Source of the DNA: Homalodisca vitripennis
Taxonomy: Eukaryota; Arthropoda; Insecta; Hemiptera; Cicadellidae
NCBI RefSeq assembly: GCF_021130785.1
Contig: NW_025776240.1
Location: 124,001-188,000, forward strand
Direction of reading: 5' to 3'
Length of the DNA: 64,000 nucleotides
Both the position numbers and the translations under genes were made by a program. Positions 1 to 64,000 of the stretch are shown in pieces. Numbering within the stretch: position 1 is the first letter of the stretch; each line of letters opens with the position of its first letter. The notes under the pieces were generated by a model, which did not search any database, was not told the DNA's origin, and worked only from the letters and a program-made list of their open reading frames with translations.

Positions 1-1079
1 CAAATAGAAAACTGATACAATCTTCATTATTATTTATATATTTTGTGATATACCATAAGAATGGCTGATATTGCTCTTAAATGTTTGTCAGCAATAAAAT
101 TTTGATTTTGCACTTTTTTTTGTTCTCTTAGGACAAGAAGCTTATAAATTGCACTTATTCCTGTAAGAACCTTTGCGCTGCTTCCGGAGTGATAGGATAT
201 TCAGGATGGGTAAGGTTAGGGAGTAGGGGCCGCCTCCTATCGAGATACATGAGGAAGAATTAGGGCACTACATCTCAAAGTCATCCCGGAATTAGGGAGG
301 GTAGCTGTGAACCAGCCTCTCCAGTCAAAGTAGGCAGGGGGACACCCTAGTTGATGTTAACAAGAGCCTCTGAGGTAAGGGAACAAACCCCACCAACTCC
401 AACAGCCATTTCCACAGTAGGCTAGACCTATCGAATTGCCCATGAATCCCAGAATCTCAACATTTGCGGTTAGTGATGTGCCGCTCGCTACTGGACATCC
501 ATAAGGTTGCCCAGATTGAAGTGGTACATCGGTTTTTGCTGTGCCCAGTGGTGAGTTCAACTGGTAGGTATAAACCAGCCAGAAGTGATCCCTGCTGGGT
601 ATGATTGATTTTGAACTTACTAATATAAGCCTACGGTTTAATCTAAAGTGTGTCTCAACAAGTGAACTCTTTCACATTTCCCTAAATTAATTTTTTCCAA
701 CATCATTAAAACACTTATTTGCACTTAGTTACTCGCAGTTTAAAGATTATTTTACAAAGTATATTTTAATTAGTAAATTTCCACCGCTATAATTTTCTAG
801 AGAAAGGGGCATCGATAAGGTCTTCTAATGAAATTAAAAATTTAGTTAATAATCAATCAATATTACAACATTACAAGACGAAATAGTATTCTGAATATTA
901 CTACTTGAACATTTTAAATACTTTCTATAAACAATTTTATGTTTTGTAAACTAATCTGACATAATATTTATAAATTTTTATATTTATTGAAAAACTAACA
1001 AAGCCTATGATAGGTTAATTCTAAAGTCTGTCTCAAGCTTAACATGTTTGTTCTGCACGATCCAAACTCTCATTCACGT
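1..1079. other. Spacer with an unclassified GC-richer block (about 128-600)
   Basis: No gene is recognised here. From about 128 to 600 the base composition is clearly more GC-rich than the AT-rich surroundings, which suggests an inserted repeat. The only open frame in it is a 67-codon minus-strand one (357-560) with no motif I know. The rest, 600-1079, is AT-rich with no structure I can name, apart from the ACGT at 1076-1079 that serves as the left target-site copy of the adjacent retrotransposon. Confidence 0.3.
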
Positions 1080-1958
1080 TGTACCGTAAATTAGTTAATT
1101 AAATTTCATACAATGTAAATTTCGCAACCTAATCAGCCAGTATAATATAATATTATTTTACATCCAATGTTCCGGAACTAAATTATTGGGCGGAGTAACT
1201 ACCTAATTGGCACGCGTATGAATTTTTTTCTTCTAACCCTTTGTAGCAGCCCAACTACGTAACCCATCAGACCTCGCGCGCTTTGTCCGTAAGTAAAATT
1301 TATCTTTTCGTATTATTAAATTAGCCCTTTGATGCCAAACGTATAAAATGAATGTAACGTAAAGTAAAGATGTGAATAGTAAAGTAACTTACCCTTGAAG
1401 ATCTTTTATTTGCTTGATGGAGATAGATAAAGGTTGTGGCGTCGTCCTTATGGCGACGAGCACATTGTTATAAATAGTAATTTGTATCATTAAATGGCTA
1501 ATACCGTCGCGAATTTGTTTTAGGCGAGTTTACGTAGCTGATGTATCTCACGTGTTGTTTGAATAGATGGCTACCACTTCCTAACTTCTACTCCTCTTCT
1601 AGAAATAACCGTTCTTAGACTACAGCTTCAATGTCTCGTGCCAAGACGCCGACACCCGGGTTGTGAGTCTACCTATTGCGAAGGGAAGTGAAATATTATT
1701 GTTTTGTAAAGTAAAACGTCGTACGCATAATTCAATAGAACATTGGATATTTTAGGCCCACCTAGAAGATATACTTTTTAGTTATTATATTCTAATTGGC
1801 AGCAACGTGGCATTACATAACTTTTCCTTTACCATCTAAAAGTGGTGCTTTTAAGTTTTCGTAATTAAACTGAACTTATAAGTAAACTTTGTATTTCTAG
1901 TATTTATTACTACGACCTCAGAAGTCACCACCCCTATGTGTTATCGTCATACGGTACA
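1080..1958 (+). repeat. 5' LTR of the Gypsy-type element
   Basis: This is the 879-bp left LTR, with TG...CA ends inside TGTACCG/CGGTACA. A TATA-rich stretch at about 1141-1160 could be the core promoter, placing transcription start upstream of the intron-like segment at 1289-1523. A block near 1630-1665 with the motif CCGACACCCGGGTTGTGAG is strongly conserved in the old solo LTR at 8908-9586, which hints at a functional element. No clear AATAAA polyadenylation signal was found. Confidence 0.95.
1289..1523 (+). other. Intron-like segment inside the 5' LTR
   Basis: This 235-bp segment begins GTAAGTAAAA, has a CTAAT branch-point-like motif at 1498-1502 (22 nt before the 3' end) and ends TTTGTTTTAG. 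The related LTR at 8908-9586 lacks precisely this segment: its sequence runs from TTTGTCC straight into GCGAGTTTACG, the product expected from splicing. There is a one-base ambiguity because G occurs at both edges. I infer a spliceosomal intron in the transcribed 5' leader, upstream of gag. A coincidental deletion is possible but would have to hit both splice-site boundaries. Confidence 0.75.
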
Positions 1959-1990
1959 CATAATTTTATTGCGCAACTCTGCTATTGATG
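1959..1990 (+). promoter_or_regulatory. Leader start with possible non-standard primer-binding site
   Basis: The sequence straight after the 5' LTR does not start with TGG, so no ordinary tRNA 3'-end primer-binding site is present. About 14 nt downstream, the stretch TTGCGCAACTCTGCT (1970-1984) matches, at 13 of 15 positions, the complement of the 5' end of eukaryotic initiator tRNA-Met as I recall it. This may be an auxiliary or unusual tRNA-pairing site, or chance. Confidence 0.3.
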
Positions 1991-2036
1991 TGCCTACTCT
2001 GCCATCAACTGGGTGAAACTGAGTGAAAACGCCACA

Positions 2037-3356
2037 ATGCCTGCCATTAAAATAGAATATTTGTCTAAAGATGAGTTGGTATTTGAACTGATATCTAGAG
2101 GTATTAAATTAAATAGTGACAGTACAGTAAATGAACTCAGAAAGTCCTTAAGACAGTGTTTGAGAAACAATATTTTACCTACTCCTAGTAGCCTATTAAA
2201 AATAGACCACAATCAGGAAGTAAAACTTCTCAGTGAAAAAGTGATATTATTAGAACATGGGTGCAGTGAATTGAGCAGTGCTAGTTCACCTTTAGAAATC
2301 ACCAAATTCCAAGAAAAGTGTAAACATTTAATAAACCGTTTATTTTTGGACAACCAGCTAGAACTAAGTTCTGTACATAGTGAAACTTTATCAGCTTTAA
2401 AGTGTAGGCTAGTAAATGTTGAACAACAGTTAGCTAAAAACTTGCTACCTACAGTGAACCTAGAACAGCTTAAAGTGTTAGAAGCCAATTTAAATGAATC
2501 ATTAGAACAAGATGAGGCTATGGAACAGGCAGTGAAAGAACAAATAGGCCCTATTTCTGTACAACCACCAACAATATCACAGCCTACTGCCAGTACCCCC
2601 ACTTTGCCTATAATGCCTATTTATAATGCAAACAATGATTGTATTAGTCAACCTATGTCTGGTTTAAATATGTTTAATAAGTTAAACAACCCTGTAGAAT
2701 GTTATTTACAAAATTTTACAGTAACAAATGGCTTAGTAGTACCTGAGCTAATAAACTTTTTGAAAACTTTGTTAAAACTAAAATGTGAAACTAGCCTATC
2801 AGAAAATGAAATTTTAGCATTGTTACCATGTTATGCAAAAGGTCCACTTTTAGCCAAAATAATACAGTGTAAGTCTATCATGCCCAATGTCAACTATCTA
2901 CACAGGGAATTAATTAGTGCTTTTATCCCTGTAGGCCTAATTGAAAGACTTAGACTAGATTTAGTTTATAGGCCACAAAGGTTTGATGAGCCACTGTATG
3001 AATACATCTATGACATCAAAGAGCTCAGTCAAGTTTTATTGTGTAACATAAGTGAACAGGACTTGGTAACTTGTATAAAAAGAGGTATTAAGCCTACAGA
3101 TAGAAATAAGTTAATTTTTGAAAACAATCCCATTTGTTTTACAGATTTGGAAAATGTGTGTATAGCTAGTAACAATATAACCTTTAATGATAACTTAAGG
3201 GACAATTTAAGTAAGACATATTATGTTAACAACATGTATCCACCACATGTTGAACCTAGGAATAGTAGGCCTACTATCAAAAACCCAAAGTTATGTTTCA
3301 ATTGTAATAGGCCTGGTCACTTAGCAAAAAATTGTTTTAGGAATCCAAAAAACTAG
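2037..3356 (+). CDS. gag: Gag polyprotein of the Gypsy-type element
   Basis: The frame encodes 439 residues from the first ATG at 2037, which has A at -3. The open frame extends to a GTG at 2013, but eukaryotic initiation favours 2037. Gag forms the virus-like particle and packages element RNA in the cytoplasm. The N-terminal half is charged and predicted helical, with leucine- and glutamate-rich stretches like a coiled coil. The middle resembles a capsid-type region. The C-terminus holds one CCHC zinc knuckle, CX2CX4HX4C (CFNCNRPGHLAKNC), typical of nucleocapsid RNA binding. It ends at TAG 3354-3356 immediately after a slippery heptamer, so pol is reached by -1 frameshifting. The frame has no internal stop. 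Confidence 0.92.
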   Translation: MPAIKIEYLSKDELVFELISRGIKLNSDSTVNELRKSLRQCLRNNILPTPSSLLKIDHNQEVKLLSEKVILLEHGCSELSSASSPLEITKFQEKCKHLINRLFLDNQLELSSVHSETLSALKCRLVNVEQQLAKNLLPTVNLEQLKVLEANLNESLEQDEAMEQAVKEQIGPISVQPPTISQPTASTPTLPIMPIYNANNDCISQPMSGLNMFNKLNNPVECYLQNFTVTNGLVVPELINFLKTLLKLKCETSLSENEILALLPCYAKGPLLAKIIQCKSIMPNVNYLHRELISAFIPVGLIERLRLDLVYRPQRFDEPLYEYIYDIKELSQVLLCNISEQDLVTCIKRGIKPTDRNKLIFENNPICFTDLENVCIASNNITFNDNLRDNLSKTYYVNNMYPPHVEPRNSRPTIKNPKLCFNCNRPGHLAKNCFRNPKN

Positions 3357-3404
3357 TTGACAGGGGAGTGGTATTACACACAACACCTAAAAATATCTCT
3401 CCCC
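3347..3404 (+). promoter_or_regulatory. -1 programmed ribosomal frameshift signal (gag-pol)
   Basis: The heptamer A AAA AAC lies at 3347-3353 in the gag frame, directly before the gag TAG stop, and matches X XXY YYZ. The pol frame is -1 relative to gag and is open from 3341, so the two frames overlap by 16 nt. After a 9-nt spacer, GGGGAG (3363-3368) can pair with CTCCCC (3399-3404), a 6-bp GC-rich stem with a 30-nt loop that could also form a pseudoknot. This is the standard layout for a frameshift that sets the Gag to Gag-Pol ratio. No assay supports it here. Confidence 0.85.
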
Positions 3405-4882
3405 GGTTTCATAAGTTTAAGAATAATAATTTTATAAATAGTAATACAGTAAGAAAAGAAAAACACTATTTTGTGAGAGTCTATGGTAAGGTAATTAAAA
3501 ATTGGAGTAAATTAAACTATAGAAAACCTAATTTAAGACTAAATGTTAGACAGTGTAACAATATGCCTTTAATTGAAGCTATAGTGGGTAAAAATGTAAA
3601 AACAAACTGCTTATTAGATACTGGTGCTACAAGAGATATAATTAGTAAAGAATTTTATGATAGCCTATTGTTGAATAAAAATGTTTCTAAATTAATGAAG
3701 TCAGATGATAGAATGTTTGGTGCAAATAACACTGAAATAAAATGTTTTGGTTACTGTTATGCTAAGATAAAAATTTCTAAATTTTGTTGGAAAGTAAAAT
3801 GTATTGTATTGGATAATTTAAAATGGGACATTGTATTGGGAAACCCATTTATAACTAATAGCAAATTAATTTTAGATCTTGATGGAGATTCATGTTATTT
3901 TAAATTCAATTGTAATGAGAAAATAACTATTGTCAGACAACAGCCTTTTGAACATGAAGTAAACAGCATTGATGTAAAAATAGGGTGCACTAGAGCTGAG
4001 GCTGTGATACAAAACCTTATAGGGGATTTTCCAAATGTTTTTACTCCAAAATTAGGAGAGGCTCTAGATTTGGAAGTGAAATTAGTTCTCAATGACCCCA
4101 CACCTGTAAATATTAGGCCTTATTTTATGAGCCCTCCTACTGTAAATAAGATGAAAACAATAATACAGGATTGGTTGGACCAAGGAATAATTGAACCCAG
4201 TACTTCAGCCTACTCCAGTCCAGCCTTTTTAACCAAAAAGGACAGACTTGTAGTCAATTATACCGAATTAAATAAAAAGTTACAGAAAATTGATTTTCCC
4301 ATTGGTGATTTAAATAATTATTATCAACATCTTAGTGGAGCCAAATATTTTTCAATAATAGATTTAAGAAAAAGTTTTTTGCAATGTCCATTATCACCTG
4401 ATAGTCAAGATCTTACCTCATTTAGCACTATATTTGGTAAATATAAATTTAAACGAGTACCCTTTGGTTTACATGTTGGTAGTGCTGTATTGTCCGCCTA
4501 TCTGGATAAAGTCCTAGACAATATAAAATTTAAATATGTGATAAATTTTTGTGATGATATCTTAGTGTACAGTAAAGACCTTGATTCGCATTTAGTACAT
4601 GTCAGAGAGATTGTAAATAGACTAAGCAAACATGGCTTAACGGCAAACCTAGAGAAAGCAAAGTTCTGTTTTGAGGAAATCTCCTTTTTGGGGAATTTAA
4701 TTAAAAATAATACAGTAACTATAGATCCCGAGCGAACAAGGAGTATAAGAGAATTTATGCCGCCTAAGAACGCCAAACAAATTTCACAGTTTTTAGGTAT
4801 GACTAATTTCTTTTCAAAATTTATAAATAATTATGCCGAATTATGTAATCCTTTAAATCGTTTTAAGAAGGAAAAACGCTAA
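3350..4882 (+). CDS. pol: Pol, part 1: aspartic protease and reverse transcriptase
   Basis: Positions count from the codon at 3368. The protease has the active-site DTG at residues 84-86 (LLDTGAT) and a later WDIVLGNPF segment near 153-161. The reverse transcriptase runs from about residue 245 to the end. It shows the substrate-binding SPAFLTKKD region (284-292), the first catalytic Asp in SIIDL (D332), the PFGL motif (365-368), and the catalytic pair D396-D397 in FCDD. Ty3/Gypsy enzymes normally have Y-(L/I/V)-DD there, so Phe-Cys-Asp-Asp is unusual. There is no start codon of its own: expression depends on the frameshift at 3347. The frame ends early at TAA 4880-4882, in the connection to RNase H, because of a one-base phase change. 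Homology resumes in another frame at once. Confidence 0.9.
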   Translation, partial: KLVDRGVVLHTTPKNISPRFHKFKNNNFINSNTVRKEKHYFVRVYGKVIKNWSKLNYRKPNLRLNVRQCNNMPLIEAIVGKNVKTNCLLDTGATRDIISKEFYDSLLLNKNVSKLMKSDDRMFGANNTEIKCFGYCYAKIKISKFCWKVKCIVLDNLKWDIVLGNPFITNSKLILDLDGDSCYFKFNCNEKITIVRQQPFEHEVNSIDVKIGCTRAEAVIQNLIGDFPNVFTPKLGEALDLEVKLVLNDPTPVNIRPYFMSPPTVNKMKTIIQDWLDQGIIEPSTSAYSSPAFLTKKDRLVVNYTELNKKLQKIDFPIGDLNNYYQHLSGAKYFSIIDLRKSFLQCPLSPDSQDLTSFSTIFGKYKFKRVPFGLHVGSAVLSAYLDKVLDNIKFKYVINFCDDILVYSKDLDSHLVHVREIVNRLSKHGLTANLEKAKFCFEEISFLGNLIKNNTVTIDPERTRSIREFMPPKNAKQISQFLGMTNFFSKFINNYAELCNPLNRFKKEKR

Positions 4883-6773
4883 ATTTGTTTGGACAAGTGA
4901 ATGTCAAGATTCGTTTGTAAAGTTAAAAGAAGCTATAATGAATCCTCCTGTACTCCAGTTAGCCGATTTTTCAAAGCAATTTATAGTAATGACAGATGCT
5001 AGTGGAATAGCCGCAGGTGGTTGTTTGTTACAGGAAAACGACCAAAATGAATTAATGCCAATAGCCTATTACTCTAGGAAATTTACTGATGCCGAATTAA
5101 AATATACTGTTTATGAAAAAGAAGCTTTGAGTGCACTAATTTGCATAGAAAAATGGCACGAATTTTTAGAAGTAAGAACCTTTAAATTAATAACTGATAA
5201 CCAAGCTTTATCCTATGTCCTCAATCACAAAAGGAAGGTAGGAAGACTTGCCCGGTGGATCGAGAGGATTTTGAATTTGCCATTTGAGGTTGAATTTAAA
5301 AGTTCCACCGATAATGCACTGGCAGATGCCCTATCACGTATGTTTGAGGGCGAGTCGACGGGAACAGCTGATCCGAGCCCCAGTGACTGCCGGAACGGTC
5401 CAGACCAGGATAAAAATAGATTATCGATTTCCTTCTGCCATTCAAACTCCTCCCGAAGGCAAAAATGTAAACCAACATCTAATGTAAAGCCTAAAATGCA
5501 GATAAATAATAAGTGCAATAACAAGGATAATTTGTGGTTATTAATTAATGATTTGCCATTAGCGTTTAAAGATTTAGAAAAATATCAACTTCAGGATAAA
5601 GAAACTCAGCAAATCATTCAATCTGTAAAAAGCAATAGTAACAATTTATGTTATTTTATAAAAAACAATTTACTGATGTACAAAAGGAATGTAAAAAGTA
5701 AGAGTAAGATATTTTTGCCTCTACAGTTAGTTGATTTAGTATATGAATTCTTCCACAGTTCTTTAATAGGAGGTCATTTAGGCATTGCTAGAACGCAAAG
5801 AAAAATTAATCAGTATTTTTATAGACCTGATTTAGACGAAATTATAAAGGCAAAAGTCAAAGAATGTAATGTTTGTAAAATGAGTAAAGTGTGCCAAAGA
5901 AAATATGAAGGCGAATTAGTATCTGTGCCATTTAAGAACAATATGGATTGTTTATTCATAGATCTTTTAGGTCCCTTAGTGAGAACTAGAAACAGCAATG
6001 TATATTTACTTGTAGTTGTAGATGCCGCCAGTAAATTTCTATGGCTAATCCCTTTGAGGGAATGTAAGAGTGCTGAAATATGTAATAAATTAGATCGCAT
6101 AATTTTTAACAACTTTTCTGTACCTAAAATAATAGTGTCAGACAATGCCGCATATTTTACATCACTGTATTTTAAGAAGTTCTTATTTAAGAATTTTATT
6201 GAACACCGTAGACTAGCGCCTTACAGGGCTAATGGAAATCAATCAGAAAGGCATATTAGAAACATATCTACATTATTACGTAGTTTCTATCACAACTGTC
6301 ATAGTAATTGGGATAATGACCTAGGCTATATACAATTAAGTTTAAACACCGCCCATAATGAAAGCACAGGTTTTGCTGTCTTTGATTTAATGTTTAATCA
6401 TTCCTGTAATAATGCTTTATCTAATTTATGGAAGCTAAATGATCTAATTGGTGAGAATTTGTCCAAGGAAACTGTTGTAAACAATTTAAAGAGAGCTGTG
6501 GTGAATGTAAAAAGGAGTATAGCACATAACAGTAATAGACAAAAGTACTCAGAGCAAAATGTAAAACATCCCTTTAAGTTGCATTCCTTAGTATGGATCA
6601 GAACCCACTATTTAAGCAATAAGGTAGAAAAGTTTTGTGCAAAATTAGCACCAAAATATGTAGGAATTTATAGAATTTTATATTTTTTAAGCCCTGTAAC
6701 TTGTATTGTACAACACACTGAAAATGTTTTGAATGTAAAAAAGGTTCATATTGTAGATTTAAAATTAAATTAA
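4872..6773 (+). CDS. pol: Pol, part 2: RNase H and integrase
   Basis: This frame continues pol after the phase break. Positions count from the Met at 4938. RNase H shows TDAS (D20), YEKEAL (E60/E62), TDNQAL (D87) and ADALSR (D130), consistent with the DEDD set. Integrase has the zinc-binding H273, H280, C310 and C313, then the catalytic triad D342 (FIDLLGP), D402 (VSDNAAYF) and E437 (GNQSERH) with DD35E spacing. Near the C-terminus, LAPKYVGIYRI resembles the GPY/F module of Gypsy integrases with Ile in place of Pro. No chromodomain is present. The frame ends at TAA about 795 bp before the 3' LTR. Because part 1 stops upstream, these domains would not be made as a normal Gag-Pol protein in this copy. 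Confidence 0.92.
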   Translation, partial: KNAKFVWTSECQDSFVKLKEAIMNPPVLQLADFSKQFIVMTDASGIAAGGCLLQENDQNELMPIAYYSRKFTDAELKYTVYEKEALSALICIEKWHEFLEVRTFKLITDNQALSYVLNHKRKVGRLARWIERILNLPFEVEFKSSTDNALADALSRMFEGESTGTADPSPSDCRNGPDQDKNRLSISFCHSNSSRRQKCKPTSNVKPKMQINNKCNNKDNLWLLINDLPLAFKDLEKYQLQDKETQQIIQSVKSNSNNLCYFIKNNLLMYKRNVKSKSKIFLPLQLVDLVYEFFHSSLIGGHLGIARTQRKINQYFYRPDLDEIIKAKVKECNVCKMSKVCQRKYEGELVSVPFKNNMDCLFIDLLGPLVRTRNSNVYLLVVVDAASKFLWLIPLRECKSAEICNKLDRIIFNNFSVPKIIVSDNAAYFTSLYFKKFLFKNFIEHRRLAPYRANGNQSERHIRNISTLLRSFYHNCHSNWDNDLGYIQLSLNTAHNESTGFAVFDLMFNHSCNNALSNLWKLNDLIGENLSKETVVNNLKRAVVNVKRSIAHNSNRQKYSEQNVKHPFKLHSLVWIRTHYLSNKVEKFCAKLAPKYVGIYRILYFLSPVTCIVQHTENVLNVKKVHIVDLKLN

Positions 6774-7567
6774 GACCTGTTCTGTATTAAAAAAAAAAAT
6801 TGTAGCATCCCTAGCTTAAGGAACCACTTGCTGCCAAATTTAAAAGATAAGATAAAATCCAGGAAGTTAACTGTTTGGTGAATTCTTAACGAATGTGTCA
6901 ATGGAAATAAAATATAGAAAAAGAATTTGTAAATAGACTTAGTGTAAAGAAATGTTGAATTTTGAATTTTGTAGATATATTTGAAGTGTTAAAATTCATG
7001 TAGATGTAAGATGTATAGGATGTTGTATGTAAATATATATAGTAAGAGTGATGCAGTATTAATACGAAATGTGAGACTTAGCTTCTCGTGAGGGGACGTT
7101 TCATTCCAAAGTATTCGATCCATATTGGTAACTTGTCCGCAAGTCTCAGAGTATTTAATGGCACAACACTATACAAAAAACACTGGTATGAATGCAAAAA
7201 AGAAGTATGAATGTGGCGCCTATATAACAAAACACTAAACTACACTTGTTTACGATTTAATCGCCTTAAATGCCCTTATTCTTGCAACGACCCGCAAATT
7301 CTAAAACGCTGCAACGTGCACTGCATGAAAATAGTTTGCCTAAATTGATTTTTCTATTTTTGGTCCCTAAGCGAGCAGTCATAGAACTGCATTGGCATGC
7401 GATCTAGCGGATTTCATAGGAAACTTTTGAAACCCCGCGCTATCGTATTGTTATGGTTGAATTTGAATTTATGTAATGAATAAAAAGTTGAATTAAGTTT
7501 GTTATTTAGAATATGTTTAAAGTAAAGCGACTAACTAGGTTGCGAAATCAAAACAGGGGGGATATTC
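6774..7567 (+). other. 3' untranslated region with polypurine tract
   Basis: The 794 bp between pol and the 3' LTR have no credible reading frame, so no env gene is present. The purine-rich AAAACAGGGGGGGA-like run at about 7550-7562 lies five bases before the LTR and is the likely plus-strand primer (polypurine tract). Confidence 0.7.
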
Positions 7568-8446
7568 TGTACCGTAAATTAGTTAATTAAATTTCATACA
7601 ATGTAAATTTCGCAACCTAATCAGCCAGTATAATATAATATTATTTTACATCCAATGTTCCGGAACTAAATTATTGGGCGGAGTAACTACCTAATTGGCA
7701 CGCGTATGAATTTTTTTCTTCTAACCCTTTGTAGCAGCCCAACTACGTAACCCATCAGACCTCGCGCGCTTTGTCCGTAAGTAAAATTTATCTTTTCGTA
7801 TTATTAAATTAGCCCTTTGATGCCAAACGTATAAAATGAATGTAACGTAAAGTAAAGATGTGAATAGTAAAGTAACTTACCCTTGAAGATCTTTTATTTG
7901 CTTGATGGAGATAGATAAAGGTTGTGGCGTCGTCCTTATGGCGACGAGCACATTGTTATAAATAGTAATTTGTATCATTAAATGGCTAATACCGTCGCGA
8001 ATTTGTTTTAGGCGAGTTTACGTAGCTGATGTATCTCACGTGTTGTTTGAATAGATGGCTACCACTTCCTAACTTCTACTCCTCTTCTAGAAATAACCGT
8101 TCTTAGACTACAGCTTCAATGTCTCGTGCCAAGACGCCGACACCCGGGTTGTGAGTCTACCTATTGCGAAGGGAAGTGAAATATTATTGTTTTGTAAAGT
8201 AAAACGTCGTACGCATAATTCAATAGAACATTGGATATTTTAGGCCCACCTAGAAGATATACTTTTTAGTTATTATATTCTAATTGGCAGCAACGTGGCA
8301 TTACATAACTTTTCCTTTACCATCTAAAAGTGGTGCTTTTAAGTTTTCGTAATTAAACTGAACTTATAAGTAAACTTTGTATTTCTAGTATTTATTACTA
8401 CGACCTCAGAAGTCACCACCCCCATGTGTTATCGTCATACGGTACA
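7568..8446 (+). repeat. 3' LTR of the Gypsy-type element, with intron-like segment 7777-8011
   Basis: This copy is 879 bp and, by eye, differs from the 5' LTR at one base (near 8423). It carries the same GTAAGT...TTTTAG segment at 7777-8011. It is followed by ACGT (8447-8450), matching the left flank. Confidence 0.95.
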
Positions 8447-8907
8447 ACGTTTCTCTACATAGAATTCTTTCCATCACCATTAAAAAACTTAATCTACACC
8501 AATATTTGCCAGTTTCAAGGTTCTCTTACATTGTATATTTTAACTCTTCAAATCCTATCGTAATGTGTTTGTATGAAACAAAAACTAATTCTGAAGAAAC
8601 TACTGAATACCCACCAATATGGTTTTTTAATTCGTACTCGAAATACAAAAATTATACTATTTGATAATTAGAGAATATTGCCTACTTAAGTATTTTTCAT
8701 ATTATATTAATTAGTAGGACTCAAGTTTGAGATTCTAAAATCACATTAATTGAATATACATATTGATTAATTTTAACGTTGATTAGGGAATAGAAATAAA
8801 CTTCGAAACGTTTGGTAAACCCTCTTAACTTTTAAACGTAATAAATTTGTAATAGTTGATTTGCAATGGTAAAACAATGTTTTCTAGTTATCTCTCGATC
8901 TCTATTC
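8447..8907. other. AT-rich spacer between the full element and the solo LTR
   Basis: No gene, repeat unit or regulatory motif is recognised in this stretch. Confidence 0.4.
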
Positions 8908-9586
8908 TGTAGCCTACCGTAAATTAGTTAATTCAATTTCATATAATGTAAATTTCGCAACCTAGTCAGCCAATATAATTTAATATTATTTTTATCCAAT
9001 ATTCCGGAACTAAATTATCGGCGGAGTAGTTACTCGCCTAAGTGGCACGCGGATGAATATTTTCTTCTAACCCTTTGTAGCAGCCCAACTATGTGACCGA
9101 GCAGACCTCGCGCCCTTTGTCCGCGAGTTTACGTTTCCCACGTGTCTCACGGCTCACAGGGCACATATTATTTGAGTAGATGGCTACCAGTTTCTTAACT
9201 TCTACTCATCGTCTAGTAACCACCGACTAGACATAACCCTTCTTAGACTACAGCGCCATTGTCTTGTGCCAAGACGCCGACACCCGGGTTGTGAGTCTAC
9301 ACATTGCGAAGGGAAGTAAAATCTTAATGTCTTATAAGGTAAAACATCGTAGGCATAATTTCAGAGAACATTGGATATTTTAGGCCCACCTAGAAGATAT
9401 ACATTTTTAGTTCTTACGTTCTAATTGGCAGCAACGTGGCATTACATACTTTTCCTTTAATATCTAAAAGTGGTGCTTGTAAGTTTTCGTAATTAAACTG
9501 AACTTATAAGTAAACTTTGCATTTATAGTATTTATTACTACGACCTCAGAAGTCACCACCCTCATGTGTTATCGTTCAACGGTACA
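8908..9586 (+). repeat. Diverged solo LTR of the same family, lacking the intron-like segment
   Basis: The 679 bp align along their whole length with the 879-bp LTRs, with many substitutions and small indels. The start is altered (TGTAGCCTACCG against TGTACCG) and the end is CGGTACA. No internal coding sequence is attached, so it is a solo LTR from LTR-LTR recombination. The flanks ATTC (8904-8907) and CTTC (9587-9590) match at 3 of 4 bases, a weak target duplication. Near 9121 it passes from TTTGTCC directly to GCGAGTTTACG, which removes exactly the intron-like 235 bp of the other LTRs. Confidence 0.9.
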
Positions 9587-23853: not shown

Positions 23854-25564
23854 TTTGAAAAAATAAAACATCATTATTATTATGAGGATGATGGTCGGTT
23901 TTTAATGTGTAGAGCTAAAAATATAGTCTGAGAAAATAACTATATCATATTTCTAACTCTTTTAATACTATCCTATGTGGTCTCTACCAATAGTGTAAAG
24001 GAAAATAATTAAGCATTTATTTAGAAAATTCCTTTACCAAGTTGAAGAGAAACACGTTTGTGCGCTTTGACAATAGAAATTCGCTGTCTCTTAGACTACG
24101 GAGTAGTAACATCGAACAAAATGTAATCTTACATTGTTAAATTGTTATAATCAGATGTTATGTGCAGAGTGTTGTAAAACCGTAACATTTCCAGGGTTAT
24201 CATCTCAAAATTCTCAAACTTCAATCTTAAACAAACACCGTATATGGTTTTAAAGCTCTACTAAAAGGAATCATTAAGGTAAAACGTTTTTTACTGAGAC
24301 AATACATTATACTTATTTAAATAGTTTTCTTTCAAAGGAAAACTAATAATTACAACTGAACAAAATGTGTAACATGGCCCACATTTTATTATTTTCATGT
24401 AAAGCTATTATAGCATTAAACACCTTTTAATTTTAGAGTAAACTATTTAAATCATATACCGTACATTATAAATTTCTATACACTTTTGTTTATGTACCTA
24501 TTCTAACTTTGTTATGTAATTAAATATTTTTAAAATGCATAAACAATGCTGTATTTTTGTAATTTGAACCGAAGTAAGATACGTAGTATACATAATGTAA
24601 ATTAAGTAACTAGTAAGTTCCTTGCATAAACCAAAGTTTTAAAGAGTTGTAGCACTATGTGTAGGATTTGTTTTAATATAGAAAACCAGAGAGGGTATGT
24701 AAAGAAGTCCCAGAACAGGTAAAAAAATTTTACAGGATCTGTAGCAATGATAACGCTCAAAGTACAATCAGTGGAAAAGTTCAGTCTGTGGCAACTCATC
24801 TCATTATAACTTTCATTCATTGCGAACGATATTTTCAATAGAGGTTGTTTTCAACAAACTCTGACTCCGTATATAAATATTGATAAGTTTAACTACTGAA
24901 ATAAAAGTGTATTTTTATATTTGTCTGATTTTTACGGTTTGGTAGTTCATAATAAAATAACTACTAACTATAATATGTAGCATAATTTTATGACTCAAGG
25001 AACAATAGATTTATAAAGACACAATCATTGTATGAACAGGAAAACATTGTATATAGACATATCTAATGTACTCAACAAATGGTCTATTATATAAACGAAC
25101 GGATCACTGAATGAAACTAGTAATGGTAATATATGATAACCAAGATATTTGTATTGCTAGGTCCTTAGACTTCCTGTAAACAATGAGTGATTGGCCTGAT
25201 TTCGTACAGCATCGTCTATTAATGACCCTTCCAATATTTGATAAAACTTTCACTAAAATAACCATTACATTGTTTTTAATAACTTTCCAACATAATAGCT
25301 TTGGATCCAAGAGAAACATGTGCACTGTATAAGGAAACAAGCTGGTTTTTTTTAGAGGAAGTTATCCTTTGAAAGATATCAATCATCAGCAATGCAAAGT
25401 AAAACTCCACGATAAAAATGACAAGTAACAAAAGGGTTAAAAATATGAAGCTAATATGTTATATCAGTTTATATTTGTTATGATTAGATGAACTTAAGAC
25501 AGAACGGCATATACATAAAAGATATTTACATGATTTTCAGGTAATATGTAATATTTATATACGC
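23854..25564. other. AT-rich intergenic sequence
   Basis: Nothing recognisable as a gene or element was seen. Confidence 0.4.
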
Positions 25565-26349
25565 GTTTTTAGGTTGATAGAATTTCTTTTAATTTCTTAA
25601 TAATCGTTCCTGTATATCATAGTGTTTGAGTGGATTTGCTAGCGCAGATAATTGCCCAGCTTTATACAAATAAGGCTTTCTCTTATCCATTAGCACCGTT
25701 GTTTTGTTACCATACTACAACGAATATGTGTCAAAAATAATGTTAAATTATACTTCATTAGATGAAATCCAACTGAAATAAAGGAATAAAGGAAGTAAAG
25801 AGGAAAATAATGTGTTTGTCAGACTTCGTGTTACTGCTTCAATGCTATGCCTTAACTACCAATATAGTGTAAGTTATGGCCAATCTCACCTCCTAAACCA
25901 ATCATGACGACATGGTAAACCTTTCATTCATATATAGATGGATCTCACGGAATAGATTAAAATTATAATATGCATAATGGATAAGAGAAAGCATTACTTG
26001 TATTAAGATGGAGAGTATGGCGTTCATCTGCTTCAACCATTATATATAAATATCAAATGTATTATATTCAGTATAATTACATTGATAGTTATATAACTTT
26101 CCACTTAATTATTATTCTTAAATAGAATATATTGCTATAGTCTAATAGGTGTGCAACTTCATAGTTAGCACAGTTAAAACATCTCCAATTAAAATGTTAT
26201 AAATATGCCAAATTTATTAGGGTTATCTAATCTGCAATTATTTAAAGTTGAGAACTATTAATGTAAAATTATATTTGGCATTTATTTTTATATTAATAAA
26301 AAAATCTATGAAATCTAAATTGTTTACGAAAAAAATTTATATATATATA

Positions 26350-26656
26350 CTGTATATATATATTCCCGGCGGAGCAAGTACTTTTTGTGATTCAATGTTT
26401 ATTGAAATTAAATAAGGCTATTGCCATTTATCCAATTTAATGTAAATAAAAGTCGTTTGACAGGTATTTGGTCTTCCGATCATATGTTAGTTTGCTTATT
26501 TAAACCCATATGTGACAGATACGGCCAAATACAAAATAATTGAATCGGAAAAAGTAAGCGCTCTGTGGTGTAATGGTAGCACATTCACCCGGCAAGTGAG
26601 AGATCCGGGTTCGATTCCCGGCGGAGCAAGTATTTTTTGTGATTCAATGTTTATTG

Positions 26657-26695
<39 letters not shown>

Positions 26696-26752
26696 TCTTT
26701 GATGTAGTCCTTTCCAGACTTTGGCAGAAATCGGTAGATTGCAACAGCAAAT
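26350..26752. mobile_element. Insertion in duplicated segment carrying a tRNA-like SINE and an inverted copy of its surroundings
   Basis: Copy 2 of the duplicated segment lacks these bases, so this is an insertion. Within it a 49-bp stretch beginning ATTCCCGGCGGAGCAAGTA occurs twice in direct orientation (26362-26410 and 26614-26662). The part from about 26374 to 26550 is the inverted counterpart of 26975-27151, forming a large imperfect inverted repeat of some 175 bp per arm. The insertion ends in a (TA)n run and a short unique tail. Confidence 0.7.
26559..26629 (+). ncRNA. tRNA-like sequence heading a SINE-like repeat
   Basis: The 71 nt fold like a tRNA: acceptor pairing GCTCTG/CGGAGC, D-arm GTGT..GCAC with an ATGG loop, anticodon stem TTCAC/GTGAG, and a perfect T-arm CCGGG-TTCGATT-CCCGG containing a polymerase III B-box (GGTTCGATTCC). 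The anticodon loop reads CCGGCAA, so U33 is absent and the putative anticodon GGC is doubtful. The 7th acceptor pair is mismatched. A partial second copy and the attached repeat body suggest a SINE head rather than a working tRNA gene. Confidence 0.5.
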
Positions 26753-26915
26753 TTAGACATATTTTAGTTTTAATTTGAAGCCCACTGTGAACCAGGAATA
26801 GATTTAAAAAGCAATTATGGCAAATAAAAATGTTTCAAATTTAACTGAGAACAATAGTTTGTAAAAACAAAATGTATACATATATATAGATAAATAAATA
26901 AATAAGAATAAATAA

Positions 26916-26963
<48 letters not shown>

Positions 26964-26974
26964 TTAAATTATTT

Positions 26975-27151
26975 TGTATTTGGCTTTTTCTTTCACATAT
27001 GTGTTTAAATAACCAAACTAACATATGATAGGGAAATCAAATACCTGTCAAATGACTTTATATATATATTCATTAAATAAATTTGTATAAGTGGCAATAG
27101 CCTAATTTAATTGAATTTCAATAAACATTGAATCCCAAAAAGTACTTGCTC
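26975..27151. repeat. Right arm of a large inverted repeat
   Basis: Reverse-complementary to about 26374-26550, with the shared core containing CAAACTAACATATGAT, ATACCTGTCAAA, GGCAATAGCC and CAATAAACATTGAATC. It is present in both copies of the duplicated segment (also 58605-58812), so this arm is the older one. Confidence 0.75.
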
Positions 27152-27520
27152 AAAAAGTAAAATGTAAAGTGTATCACATATATCACATTAAATGTTACAT
27201 TTCTTTGTAATATGACACTTGTCATATCCAATATTATTTATCATCGTTTCTAAAGACTATCCTAGTTTACGTCAATGTTGTGTATTCATCGCATAATTAA
27301 ATGAAATAGTTAATAACGTTTTAGAGAAGAGAACTGAAATAGTGTATACATGTGCAAATCGTTCCTGGTTATTTAAATTGATTATTCTGAACAAAATAAA
27401 TTAAGGTTAAATCATTTCTAAAAAAGGAAAGGTTAGGATTAAAACGGGTACAAAATTCTATATAAAATACATAAGTATTATAAAAAACACAATGAGTCAA
27501 TTCCATTAGTTGCTGTTATT

Positions 27521-30391
27521 GTCAAGTTCTCAAAGTGATTATCTTGAGAGCGCCACTTGGTGATTTCGAAGATAGCTTCTTGTGTGGATGTTTCAGTTTT
27601 AGTTGCAATGCATGATTTTTGAGCTTGTTAAAAAATTAGTTTCACTTAATTATAATCATTTATTAGAATAAACTGTGTACGTGTAAAATGAGATGCAATG
27701 TATTTTCTTTGACTCTTTCATTACTATGAAGACTAAAGTTTTAGTACAATTTACCGAGACCTGGGGGATAGACTTCTATTATCATTAAAATTACATTACA
27801 ATTAAAATGATATAATTTTGTGTTATTTTCATACTATGTACTGAGTACGTTAATAGCACATTTATTTATATAGTTATTATATACATTTTATTTTTTTGAA
27901 ACCTGATTTTCTTTTTTGTTTAGGTTTATATTTTAATAGCGTAAGTGACATTTAATCCGGTTGTACCGCTGTGGCTTTAAATTAGTGTTTGTTGTTTAGT
28001 TTTGTATTATACTTTTGTGGTCTCTGTTGAATGTTTTTCTCATCGATGGAAAGTTACAACACATCTTGTATAGAGTAAACATCTGTTGTGTAATTTTTAT
28101 AAACATTCTAGAACATATTATCAAACTTTCAATCTTTTTAACATAAAGAAAAATTCTAGAAATTAAATTAAGGCATTTTTCTATAAAATATATAAATATC
28201 CTAAGGTTAAACAAAATTCATTTATAAGACAGAATAATTTCTAAGTACCATTATTATTGTTCGCATTGTATTTTACAGAATGTCTTCTACAAAAGAGGTT
28301 GTTTTAAAATATAACTAAAAAAAATTATGGTTGCCTGTAAAGTCGGTTTTACGGGCGGAGATTTTACTTGTCAACGTCTTTTTCTCGGTAGAATATTTAT
28401 TGATTTGAATATTATTAAATTGCACAATAGGAACAAGGAATTGAATGAAAATAAGAATTTCACAAATTTTAACTATAGAAATATATTTTGTTTACTAAAA
28501 CATTGTACATAATTTGAAATTAATTAAAATTTGTTATTGTAAATGGTAAAGTTGAATAAAACATTTACTAAAATTGGAATTTGAAATTCTTGCTAAACAC
28601 AGTTAAATTCTAACTCCGCGCGTGGTGATTGGTCGGTTTAGTTCGTTTGTTTGGTCGCACTGTTATGACAGGTTAGAGGTTATAATTTGTTATTTTAAAT
28701 GTTTGACTAGCAATACGCGCTGTTTCTTCTCAATCGACTGAATTACGATTGATTGCAGAGTGATTTAAACTAATAATTTACTTAACACTATCAACATTTG
28801 TCAATAGTATGACATAACCTATAAACTCAGTTTCTCAACTTTTGTGTCAATCTAACAATTAATCAATCAATCATAGTTTACGATAATGAAATATCAGTGT
28901 ACAATTATTTACCTTTATTGTTGTAGTTGTTGTAAATGACGAATCTAAGCACTCCACATTTTCACGAATAAACATAGTTATCTGCTTTATCCTGTGCGGA
29001 TCCCGTGCGGCGGACCCACTGGACGGGCATCGTAACGTTACCGGGCGTTACACTTTTTCATGAGTGACTCCGAGCCGTAACCTAATTTAAGACGTTGTCA
29101 CGTAAAAATTGTATATCTTAAAAATCCAAATATACAAGTAAACGCGTAGGAACCATGACACATCAGAATGCTATAAAACTTGCCGAATTATTGTTGCGTA
29201 ATTATTGTTTGCATAAAAGCTACTTATTACTGGCTTAATAGAAATTAGACTAATTTAATGAGGAGATATAAACGTCAAAATTTGTCACCCTGTCTTGTTA
29301 TAGTAGGGGAATCTTCATTATGCTTATCTTATAGTTTATTATCATTACCACAGTAGAAAAAAATAATAACTAGCTATTATGATTAATAGATTTTAAATAT
29401 TACCATTACATTAAAATAAAAGAAATAAATTGCCTTTGAGCAGAAAGCCAATCTGGACAGTATAAAAACAATACTTGACGTTTCTTGAAATCGATACAGG
29501 AAATTTTCTAAGAAAGAAATGGAACTTCAGCCACTCCAGTTATAATTAAAAAAGACTAACTATTATTATATTATATTTATCAAGCTACCGGACATATCAG
29601 AACCGTCGGATAGCTATATTAAGAGACTCAAAACCAGTTAGTATAAAACTCAATATTAAAACATATAGCCTAACTATTCCTACTCATACAACACATTTCA
29701 TGGCTACTTGGTGTGAAGACGTATATTATTTAAACACTGATATGAAACCTAATGTAATGAACATGAATATGACGTATCATGTAGTAAGATATCTCGGTAA
29801 ACATTTCATCTGTTGAAATCTTGCATGAAAATACATTTCTAAATATATATGAATGAGTTCTATGATAGTACATTTCGAATTATGGAATTTGCCTGGCGTA
29901 ATAAAGTATTCTGATAGTTATAATAAATTCAGTAGTAAATGAATGTTTAAAACGTTGGCACTTATCGAATTTACAAACTTAAACCGCTTTCAAGTAGGAG
30001 AAAGGCTAATTTAAATCTTATTACCTTGGATTGTAATTACACAGTAGATAACTGAACTTGAAAGCTATCTACGTTCCTCTCCAACAAGTACGTAATTTAA
30101 CGATAGTATATAAACTCAGTTCTGCGTTAGGAACCGTATTGCTTTTACAATTACAACACAGACAAACCTGTTACAAATTACCCATTAATTCAATTAACAG
30201 GTATCTATTATTTATGTACTTTTTAGTACTAACTATGCAATATATTGCTTGTAGAATTAATTTGGAAGCGCGTTTTGTTATAAAAGTGTTATTAGTTAAG
30301 TATGAATATTATATTTCAAGTAATTCGATCTTACACCACTTAATAGTAAAATAATCTAATAATATTAGTTATTAGATAATATGCAAGTAAT
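27521..30391. other. AT-rich intergenic sequence with two GC-richer patches
   Basis: No gene is supported. The patch at about 28612-28650 (CGCGCGTGGTGATTGGTCGG, including a CCAAT-type ATTGG) and the one at about 28995-29060 (CGTAACGTTACCGGGCGTTAC) stand out from the background. They could be a promoter or ends of an unrecognised element. Nothing coding follows them that I can support. Confidence 0.3.
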
Positions 30392-57605: not shown

Positions 57606-58684
57606 TGCGTTTTTTGGTTGATGGAATTTCTTTTAATTTCTTAATAATCGATCATGTATATCGTAATGTTTGCGTAGAACTGCTGAAGCAGATAATTACC
57701 GCCCTTTCCAGCTTTATACAAATAAGGCTTTCTCTTATCCATTAGCACCGTTGTTTGTTACCACGCTACAACGAACAAAATGTGTCAAAAGTAATGTTAA
57801 ATTATACTTCATTAGACGAAATCCACCTGAAATAAAGGGTAAAGAGGAAAATAATGTGTTTGTCAGACTTCGTGTTACTGATTCAATGCTATGCCTTAAC
57901 TACCAATATAGTGTAAGTTATGGCCAATCTCACCTCCTAAACCAATCATGACGATATGGTAAACCTTTCATTCATATATAGATGGATCTCACGGAATAGT
58001 TTAAAATTATAATATGCATAATGGATAAGAGAAAGAATTACTTGTATTATGATGGACAGTATGGAGTTCATCTGCTTCAACCATTATATATAAATATCAA
58101 ATGTACTATATTCAGTATAATTACATTGATAATTATATAACTTTCCACTTAATTACTACTCTTAAATAGAATATATTGCTATAGTCTAATAGGTGTGCAA
58201 ATTCATAGTTAGCACAGTTAAAAAATCTCCAATTAAAATGTTATAAATATGCCAAATTTATTTGGGTTATCTAATCTGCTATTAGTTAAAGTTGAGAACT
58301 ATTAATGTAAAATTATATTAGGCATTTATTTTTATATTAATAAAAAAATCTATGAAATCTAAATTGTTTACGAAAAAAATTTATATATATAATTGAGACA
58401 TATTTTAGTTTTAATTTGAAGCCCACTGTGAACCAGGAATATATTTAAAAAGCAATTATGGCATATAAAAATGTTTCAAATTTAACTGAGAACAATAGTT
58501 TGTAAAAACAAAATGTATACATATATATATATATATATATAGATAAATAAATAAATAAAAATAAATAAATAAATATATATATATATATAAATAATTAAAT
58601 GATTTTTTATTTGGCTTTTTCTTTCACATATGTGTTTAAATAACCAAACTAACATATGATAGGGAAATCAAATACCTGTCAAAT

Positions 58685-58737
<53 letters not shown>

Positions 58738-58842
58738 TTAAATCAATTTGTATAAGTGGCAATAGCCTAATTTAATTGAATTTCAATAAACATTGAATCA
58801 CAAAAAGTTCTTGCTCAAAAAGTAAAATGTAAAGTGTATCAC

Positions 58843-58844
<2 letters not shown>
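57606..58844. repeat. Long duplicated segment, copy 2, left part
   Basis: This matches 25565-27170 apart from the about 400-bp insertion at 26350-26752, which is absent here. The two copies lie about 32 kb apart in the same orientation. The left part ends at GTATCACAT (58844), where a LINE-bearing insertion begins. (AT)n runs at about 58519-58540 and 58689-58734 lie inside it. Confidence 0.9.
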
Positions 58845-59619: not shown

Positions 59620-61320
59620 CTAAATAGTGCAAGGTCTTGGGTTTTTTATAAAGTATGGTAATTTCGAGAAAATTATATGAGCAATATAGTGAGATGATGT
59701 TGAATTAAAGGCTTTAACGAGTCTAGGAACAATAATTCTGTTATGAAGTGAAGAAACGCGTGTAAAATGGCTGTGGTTACTGTGAATGAAAATTGAATCT
59801 CGATGTTGAAAAATGTACAAAACTAATGTTCGGATATATAATTGCGAGACGTTAAAAACTTTAAATTCTTCAAATAATAAATTGGTTGGATAAGTACGAT
59901 TTCGCTTCAGAGCTACTTTTATAATAGTTTTTTTGAACGACTTCTAAGGGAGCAAGGTTATTTTGAAAACAGCCACCCCATGCTAAATTACCATACTGAA
60001 GAATTGATTGCACCATAAGCATAGTATACAGTTTTTAAAAGATCTATTGTAAGTATATTACGCAGATTACAAAATATAAAGATAAATTTACGAAGTTTAT
60101 TCCGCATGTAAGCTACGTGATTACACCACTTCAAACGATTGTCAAAAAAACTACAACCCAAGTATTTATACTCACTCACCCTATCAATACATTCACACAA
60201 AACGCATCCATCCTGGCCACCACAAGTATGCAACCGTAGATTAAAAACAAAAGGATCGCCGTCAGCTCGTATAGAGATTGGCATACATTTAGTTTTGGCT
60301 ATATTAACCGTGAGCCGACATTGATCAAACCAGCGCTTGACAGTGAGTAGACCGCGCTCAGCCACATCCCTCACTTCCTCCCAGCTTTCACCTCAAATAA
60401 CAAAGCGGTGTCGTCCGCATAAAGAAATATCTGTCCTTTACACAGAGTCAATCTTCCTAGATTGTTAATAAAAATTAAGAAAAGCAAGGGTCCCAAGAGT
60501 ACTGCCTTGCAGAACCCCATACTCAATTTTTTGAGGAACGCTTGTATGGCCTAAAACAGAAACAACTTGATACCGATCGGACAAATAACTTTTGAACCAA
60601 TCTCCAAGAGTTCCCTTGTATTCCAATATATTTTAATTTTTGTAGTAGTAATTGGTCTATCAACTGTATCAAAAGCTTTAGCTAAATCTATAAAAAATCA
60701 ATAATGGTTTTTTATTACGGCTAATCGTGTCATGAACACTTTTAGTTAGCAAATATAAATCGTCATTCAAAATTCTTATCTTTTCTGAAACCGAATTGAT
60801 TTTGTACAAGAATATTATTTGATGTTTAAATATGTTTCGAGTTGAATTCTAACACATTTTTCCAATAATTTAGATAAAACACTAGTTAAAGTTATTGGCC
60901 AGCTGAAGCTAACACATCGATTTTTTGGGCCTCCCTTATAGATTGGAATTACTTTACCCATTTTAAAAGATGCTGGGAAAATTCCCTGTGACATACTATT
61001 GTTTATAATATGTAGAAGTGGAAGCTTTAATAAATTAAAAAAACATTTTGATAAGAGTAACCGGGATTCCATCTTCTCCCGGAGCAGACCCGCCTCCAAG
61101 GTTTTGTACAACATGAGCAAGGACATCCTCGGATATCGGCTCCAGCTGGAAGTAAGAATTCGCCCCGTAATCCTCGTCATTCATAACGACTTCAGTCACG
61201 GGAGGCACAGCACTGGCTAAGTTGGCACCTACCCTAACATAGTACTCATTTAATGTGTTAGCTACATTATTTATATCATTTGTCTCAATATTAATTTTGC
61301 CATCCAGAAAACTGTTCAAT
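59620..61320 (-). pseudogene. LINE reverse transcriptase and C-terminal region, decayed
   Basis: 61035-61319 carries GGSAPGEDGIPVTLIK, the start of the RT domain. 60815-61180 carries SQGIFPASFKMGKVIPIYK and PITLTSVLSKLLEKCV, the conserved RT N-terminal motifs. Phase changes follow. The YADDT catalytic stretch is legible near 60410-60430, with a GVPQGS-type region near 60500-60520 damaged. 59988-60374 holds the thumb-like part with WFDQCRLTVNIAKTKCM and EYKYLGCSF. The element is non-functional. Confidence 0.8.
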
Positions 61321-61613
61321 AGGAAAGGAATCTTTTTTTTTTATTCATGTCCATAATTTCAGCAATATTTTTCCACAAGAGCTTATTATTATTTTTTGAT
61401 TCATTTATTTTATTTCTAAAATACATTTCTTTAGCCAATTTAATAGTTTTATTTAAGAGATTTCTGTAGTGCTTGAAACGGGTTTTTAACATTGCATTAA
61501 AAGGCTGGCTTTTGAGCTCTTACTCATTCTATCTCTAACTCGAATTGATTTAATTAGTCCAGCGGTAACCCACGGCTTTAGCTTGACGTGCTTAGAAGAA
61601 ATTGGGTTTCTTA

Positions 61614-62530
61614 TTAATTGAGGATTGTAATAGAATATCTTGCAAAATATTCAACAAACTTAGATGCAGACAGATTAACATCCTCGATCTCTAAAATCGG
61701 TGTCCAATTTCTTTCAGAGACAAGACGGCCAGCAATATCAAAGTCAATATATGTGTTTTTAACGAAAGATGGTTGTTTTCTTTTACTTTTAATGAAACTG
61801 TGTTGACTTTGCGAGACAGTAAAATAGTGATCCGTCATTTCCGCTTTGATGACCGCCGACTTAACACCGTCCGTAGTTTTAATATCCGTAAATATATGAT
61901 CAATACAAACTTTTGGAAAATCCAGTAACTCTGGTTGGCACATTAATGCAACTAATGAAAACCAGCTCCATACATTACATCAAGATATCGTTGTGACAGT
62001 GGATCGTTGGTTTTCAGGTAAAATACAACAATTTATATCACCAATCAGCCAGTGAACCCGATCCCTGGGCCTGGTTTCAAGATAAACCTCGAGATCACTA
62101 ATGAAAGAGTCAAGGTCACCGGACGGGCTACGGTAAATGGCGAGCAACGACATCCGCTCCCTGCCAAACGTTATATCTAGTTTCAAACATGTGGCACCGC
62201 TCAGATTCACTTCCGCATGACATACTGAAAAACATTTATTAACGAAAACAATCACGCCATCATTCTGATTCATACTTTCCTTATTTACGAATCTATCATA
62301 CCCATCCATACTCACATTTACACTGCACTCATCCATCCAAGTCTCTGTTTAAAATAATTATGTTCAAACTTAAACTTATAGTTGTTCAAAATGATAATTA
62401 GCTCATCAAAATTCTTTTTACAGCTACGAATATTCAAGCTAAGGATTGTCACTCGATTTTTCATTTACGTCTTCATTTTCTGAGAAAAAATCAAAACTAT
62501 CAACATAATCATAACACATGCATTCACAGC
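61614..62530 (-). pseudogene. LINE endonuclease domain (EEP family), decayed
   Basis: The domain begins with a TILSLNIRS-like start near 62455, preceded by an acidic leader (about 62520). It includes QNDGVIVFVNK, LLAIYRSPSGDLDSFI, HWLIGDINCCIL (62336-61980) and the MTDHYFTVSQ segment (61614-61943), equivalent to the SDH motif. A stop or phase change separates the two frames near 61945-61980. This enzyme would nick target DNA for target-primed reverse transcription. Confidence 0.8.
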
Positions 62531-63654: not shown

Positions 63655-64000
63655 TATGTTATATAAATGTTATATTTCTTTGTAATATGACACTTGTCAT
63701 ATCCAATATTATTTATCATCGTTTCTAAAGACTATCCTAGTTTACGTCAATGTTGTGTATTCATCGCATAATTAAATGAAATAGTTAATCACGTTTTGAG
63801 AAGAGAACTGAAAAGTGTATACATGTGCAAATCGTTCCTGGTTATTTAAATTGTTTATTCTAAACAAAATAAATTAAGGTTAAATCATTTCTAAAAAAGG
63901 AAAAGTTAGGATTAAAACGGGTAAAAAATTCTATATAAAATACATAAATATTATAAAAAACACAATGAGTCAATTCCATTAGTTGCTGTTATTGTCAAGT
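63655..64000. repeat. Long duplicated segment, copy 2, right part (runs off the window)
   Basis: This aligns with 27196-27520 of copy 1, for instance through CATATCCAATATTATTTATC and TTACGTCAATGTTGTG. It is still matching at the last base of the window. Confidence 0.9.

Follow-up and report, generated by a model that had tools for sequence, protein, structure and literature searches.

The exact removal of an intron from marked Ty elements is the classic proof that they move through an RNA intermediate (PMC12786077, PMC3735527). Optional splicing occurs in the natural elements EVADE and BARE1 (PMC12786077, PMC3735527), and the functional introns of Ogre and EVADE give rise to subgenomic RNAs, as described in the available part of the source (PMC12786077). 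Alternative splicing of BARE1, a Copia element of barley, goes together with translation and replication drawing on separate RNA pools, and the available text on this element places its 104-nt intron outside the LTR, with the junction situated 2 nt beyond where the gag domain ends (PMC3735527). In EVADE, splicing removes the protease domain, and the available part of the same paper does not describe the introns of Ogre and EVADE as located in the LTR (PMC12786077).

The window analysed here, a 64,000-nucleotide stretch of Homalodisca vitripennis DNA, contains a Ty3/Gypsy retrotransposon with a 235-bp intron-like segment inside each LTR. Introns or splice sites are known from several other systems. 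The Ogre intron is located in the coding region. The Drosophila Penelope element carries an intron in a 5' UTR that is borne on a repeat. Deltaretroviruses and foamy viruses have a splice donor in R, within the LTR, but the matching acceptors are located beyond its 3' end, and the intron thus extends outside the LTR. Penelope-like elements are likewise retroelements of invertebrates that spread with introns, and their mechanism apparently permits intron retention, but retention there has been proposed to proceed via an antisense template (PMC3846280, available part). They also differ in not being LTR retrotransposons and in having another reverse transcriptase and another endonuclease. The likeness to BARE1 is that of an LTR retrotransposon with optional splicing, but BARE1 is a plant Copia element whose splicing has been demonstrated experimentally (PMC3735527, available part), whereas the present case is an insect Gypsy element with a candidate intron recognised from its sequence. 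Introns in LTR retrotransposons are already known; a location wholly inside the LTR is probably new, since searches of open-licence papers turned up no description of such an intron in an LTR retrotransposon. The phrase 'intron in the LTR1.20 leader' in one open paper refers to the name of a vector.

Structure and relatives of the element

The element occupies positions 1080-8446 on the + strand. Its LTRs are 879 bp long and identical at 878 of the 879 positions, the sole mismatch lying at 1935; each starts with TGTACCGT and ends with the inverted ACGGTACA. The paired 879-bp LTRs with a short target duplication (ACGT), and the order of the Pfam domains, namely protease (24.9 bits, under its cut-off of 28.2), reverse transcriptase, RNase H and integrase, are those of Ty3/Gypsy elements (Metaviridae). 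The parts of the element are as follows.

1076..1079, no strand, left copy of the target site duplication ACGT, flanking the 5' LTR
1080..1958, + strand, 5' LTR, 879 bp, with inverted TGTACCGT/ACGGTACA ends
2037..3356, + strand, gag, with a zinc knuckle
3341..4882, + strand, first part of pol, with a protease-like stretch and reverse transcriptase
4857..6773, + strand, second part of pol in another frame, with RNase H and integrase
7568..8446, + strand, 3' LTR, 878/879 identity with the 5' LTR
8447..8450, no strand, right copy of the target site duplication ACGT, flanking the 3' LTR

A slippery heptamer, A AAA AAC at 3347-3353, lies in phase directly 5' of the gag stop, and a -1 shift leads into the pol frame. 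The coding sequence of pol is further split between two frames by a frameshift, and so the pol of this copy is broken. There is no open reading frame of at least 120 aa between pol and the 3' LTR. ZAM and other insect endogenous retroviruses are likewise Ty3/Gypsy elements with spliced RNAs, but their splicing makes env (PMC12992720, available part). No TGG-type primer binding site was seen by eye directly 3' of the 5' LTR (1959-2040). Self-priming was considered as a locator of the transcription start and set aside, since there was no convincing complement; the match within the element is at most 9 nt and lies away from the LTR. The sequences on either side of the element, 674-769 and 8447-8543, show a weak similarity (75%).

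The gag protein has five matches, of which the only one with an organism name is a protein of H. vitripennis (P0005) with 86% identity over 21% of the query. This protein is named TOM70 and carries an N-terminal gag piece of the same family, and it is either a chimera of gene and retroelement or an annotation artefact. Among the best 120 of 592 matches to pol, the named relatives belong to Homalodisca (45 and 35% identical), Graphocephala (54%), Macrosteles (42%) and other arthropods. The gag and pol matches thus make a sharpshooter or another leafhopper the likely host. A search of viral contigs for copies of the family gave no close relative, with pattern matches in 43 and 213 stretches and none confirmed, and a search of genome contigs by the LTR pattern gave no family copy. 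Four of 22 pattern stretches were confirmed as pol relatives; they are 26-37% identical, too distant for a comparison of LTRs, and all belong to a single record set whose title gives a cyanobacterial MAG.

The 235-bp segment and the LTR that lacks it

The initial annotation reported a 235-bp segment with a GTAAGT start, an internal CTAAT and a TTTGTTTTAG end in both LTRs, and the two copies at 1289-1523 and 7777-8011 are indeed present and identical. The features that bear on its nature are listed below.

1289..1523, + strand, candidate spliceosomal intron in the 5' LTR, GTAAGT...TTTGTTTTAG, missing from the solo LTR
1435..1464, + strand, stable hairpin within the segment, from the fold of 1430-1470
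1498..1502, + strand, branch-point-like CTAAT, its A 22 nt upstream of the segment end
1864..1869, + strand, candidate polyadenylation signal ATTAAA, with a conserved counterpart at 9492 of the solo LTR
7777..8011, + strand, same segment in the 3' LTR, 235/235 identical
8908..9586, + strand, related solo LTR that lacks the segment, with its junction at 9122/9123

The segment has GT-AG ends and consensus sequences at the donor, the branch point and the acceptor, as expected of a spliceosomal intron, and the scores of these sites are moderate. By a splice-site matrix, the donor TCC|GTAAGT is equalled or surpassed by 436 of the window's 7265 GTs and the acceptor by 807 of its 6495 AGs. Six of the ten bases 5' of the terminal TAG are pyrimidines, narrowly below a threshold of 7. 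The GC content of the segment is 0.319, against 0.49 in the 100 bp upstream and 0.41 in the 100 bp downstream, and is close to the host background of 0.314; its T content is hardly higher than that of the rest of the LTR (0.353 versus 0.339). The BARE1 intron shows a comparable GC contrast with its exons, but is strongly enriched in U, according to the available part of that study (PMC3735527). For the stretch 1430-1470, which was picked by eye, the folding energy is -14.7 kcal/mol (z -2.54), equalled or bettered by 3 of 200 shuffles, and the fold of the whole segment is of unremarkable stability (z -0.98, equalled or bettered by 32 of 200). Searches with ARAGORN and with Rfam at gathering cut-offs detected nothing within the segment and one tRNA-Ala in the window. 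Reading frames across the junction, considered as a means of tracing spliced transcripts among predicted proteins, reach no more than 39 aa once the two sides of the LTR are joined.

The solo LTR at 8908-9586 reads CTTTGTCC|GCGAGTTTACG at the position of the segment. With the segment omitted, it differs from the LTR of the element at 63 of 640 aligned positions (K2P 0.106), and the remaining indels in this alignment measure 1-14 bp. The flanks of the junction match at 8/8 and 26/30 bases on the left and at 12/12 and 23/30 bases on the right. Global alignment places one large gap exactly at 1289-1523 in 100 of 140 parameter settings. Among the other 40 settings, 27 give a single shorter gap (at least 50 bases) at 1493-1557, eight give no gap of at least 50 bases and five give other results. 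BLAST pieces stop and restart at the junction, the right-hand piece being weak when taken alone (E 0.57), and a three-way MAFFT alignment missed the clean gap and aligned bases of the solo LTR with the start of the segment. Since the 8 bases before and the 12 bases after the junction all match without the segment, a clean gap at 1289-1523 is the simplest reading of the alignment, in agreement with the earlier claim that this diverged LTR lacks exactly the segment. A G shared at the junction permits a second placement of the gap one base to the right, and so the GT-AG placement is one of two equal ones. Exact absence from a spliced or reverse-transcribed form is a mark of an intron, and an exact absence is seen here in one lineage, the solo LTR. 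The flanks of 8908-9586 show no perfect target duplication (ATTC versus CTTC), and hence this sequence is probably, but not certainly, a solo LTR by origin.

TATAAA occurs at 1342 and 1469, both within the segment. The solo LTR has nothing that corresponds, at that place, to an initiator-like TCAGA at 1267, the motif from which a transcription start at 1269 is assumed. Counted from this assumed start, seven of the 12 upstream ATGs before gag fall in the segment. Among the AATAAA and ATTAAA motifs sought, ATTAAA at 1864 is the one common to both LTR types, and it sits in a 40-base identical block, 1852-1891.

Eight blocks of at least 18 bases are identical between the two LTR types, which are diverged by about 10%. 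Five of them measure 29-40 bases each, at 1638-1672, 1737-1774, 1790-1818, 1852-1891 and 1898-1933. The block at 1638-1672 holds a second donor-like sequence, GTGAGT at 1663, with its counterpart in the solo LTR at 9291.

A candidate leader intron inside the LTR

With a probability that we place just above an even chance, 1289-1523 would be a weak leader intron lying wholly inside a Ty3/Gypsy LTR, and the solo LTR would descend from a copy of the spliced RNA. From the observed anatomy of the segment and its observed absence from the solo LTR, we infer splicing, the start site, the roles of the two RNAs and the direction of change. Transcription would begin in the LTR upstream of 1289, and cleavage of the RNA would occur close to the ATTAAA at 1864, which is conserved. 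An RNA that starts before 1289 and ends after 1864 carries the segment within R, and the segment would lie in the untranslated leader. Splicing may be optional because of the weak exon side of its donor. The unspliced RNA would serve as the genome, which would explain why both LTRs of the element still carry the segment. The spliced RNA would have a shorter leader freed of seven of the 12 upstream ATGs and may serve for translation. Occasional packaging and reverse transcription of the spliced RNA would produce a copy whose LTRs exactly lack the segment, and 8908-9586 may descend from such a copy.

In the standard model of reverse transcription of LTR elements, cDNA synthesis begins with the 5' end of the RNA, and this cDNA is then transferred to the 3' end. 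Both new LTRs therefore take the state of the RNA 5' end. If the segment lies in R, two LTRs with the segment point to a last genome RNA that was unspliced at the segment, and an exact absence points to the use of a spliced one. A leader intron in R is thereby expected to vanish whenever the spliced RNA is copied. If this reading is true, an intron-keeping element beside a relative with an exact loss would allow replication through spliced RNA by LTR retrotransposons to be counted from genome data, and the locus would be a natural version of the experiment with intron-marked Ty elements. The initial annotation had proposed both an intron and its exact loss, and the proposal gains from the fact that the very segment that is missing has splice-like ends and from the lack of a target duplication. 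The drop in GC content relative to both flanks, the seven upstream ATGs inside the segment and the conserved polyadenylation-like signal downstream of it also speak for an intron. Its wider claim, that the family moves with and without splicing, goes further than a single solo LTR diverged by about 10% can carry, no full-length element without the segment having been seen.

Several points argue against the intron. Its splice sites are only moderate and its pyrimidine count falls short, its T and GC contents barely differ from those of the rest of the LTR and of the host background, respectively, 40 of the 140 alignment settings and the MAFFT alignment do not yield the clean gap, the initiator-like TCAGA is missing from the solo LTR, and a single lineage lacks the segment. 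Free packaging of the spliced leader RNA should moreover erase the intron quickly. Upkeep of the intron needs either weak splicing or a packaging signal within the intron; weak splicing agrees with the weakness of the donor on the exon side, and the hairpin at 1435-1464 makes an internal packaging signal no more than conceivable. A further point is that TATAAA at 1342 or 1469 could place the transcription start inside the segment. With a promoter at either position, the donor would lie outside the 5' leader, and the scheme would fail in that form.

A more elaborate form of the scheme, which we regard as unlikely, makes the intron a built-in switch. The intron would contain the packaging signal, which may be the hairpin at 1435-1464, so that only intron-retaining RNA would be packaged, and splicing would yield an RNA for translation with a cleaner leader. 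Rare packaging of the spliced RNA would found lineages without the intron. Such lineages would have to live without the packaging signal or parasitise intron-bearing elements, and the LTR would record, cycle by cycle, whether the genome RNA had been spliced.

Chance of splice-like ends and competing explanations

The leader-intron reading has to be weighed against an ordinary indel, caused by a small mobile element or by a template-switch pickup during reverse transcription, with splice-like ends that arose by chance. Large indels are frequent in LTRs, the splice sites of the segment are only moderate and its pyrimidine count falls narrowly short, and the one other aligned repeat pair in the window, which serves as a comparison, differs by a 403-bp segment whose ends are not splice-like. 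Against this stands the rarity of such ends. GTAAGT...TAG at a spacing of 235 occurs at 3 of 127,530 position-strands in the window, two of which are the LTRs of the element. A matrix score as good is found at 18 of 127,514 position-strands at this spacing, both LTRs included, and at 1137 of 12,800,000 for other lengths. When two strands and two gap placements are allowed for, the strict rule puts the chance of such ends at a random 235-bp indel at ~3e-5, whereas the matrix puts it at ~4e-4 to 5e-4, and the window offers few opportunities for such a coincidence. There is also no target duplication at the segment beyond the one shared G. A TTTGT direct repeat near both segment ends fits neither a target duplication nor deletion homology, since the following bases differ in the solo LTR. 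A small mobile element should show a target duplication and/or terminal inverted repeats, and was rejected for want of these; the closest inverted match sits 31 and 21 nt in from the ends and falls short of significance, with 51 of 1000 shuffles doing as well. An ordinary indel is therefore possible but doubtful.

The segment may instead be a true intron that was gained, by reverse splicing into the element RNA or by an introner-like insertion, the intron-less LTRs being ancestral. Since a single lineage lacks the segment, loss and gain are indistinguishable, and presence and absence in two lineages carries no polarity. The young element has the segment in both LTRs and the diverged solo LTR is without it, and the exon junction CC|GC differs from the usual AG|G site, both of which favour a gain. 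However, an exact gain without target duplication would be a rarer event than an exact loss through reverse transcription, which is part of the life cycle, and gain is judged unlikely. Finally, the segment could be a promoter module of U3, with TATAAATAG at 1469, gained or lost en bloc and not spliced in the 5' leader. The two TATAAA motifs inside it agree with this, but a TATA-like match in 235 bp of such base composition is estimated to be unsurprising, and the splice-like ends would be left unexplained. This is a very improbable explanation.

The comparison pair consists of 25563-27179 and 57607-58844 (93 and 87% identical), of which the first copy has the 403 extra bp at 26347-26749. This extra stretch contains the tRNA-Ala gene at 26559-26629, and 26372-26545 matches 26963-27151 in inverted orientation at 83%. 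The similarity of the pair continues past an extra sequence of ~4.8 kb in the second copy, which was left out of the repeat-pair alignment, with 27189-27527 and 63664-64000 being 97% identical. Open reading frames at 59988-62348 inside the ~4.8-kb sequence look LINE-like by eye. The open reading frame at 15246-16028 matches the DDE_3 transposase at 21.8 bits, below the Pfam cut-off of 28.6, and is mariner-like by appearance.
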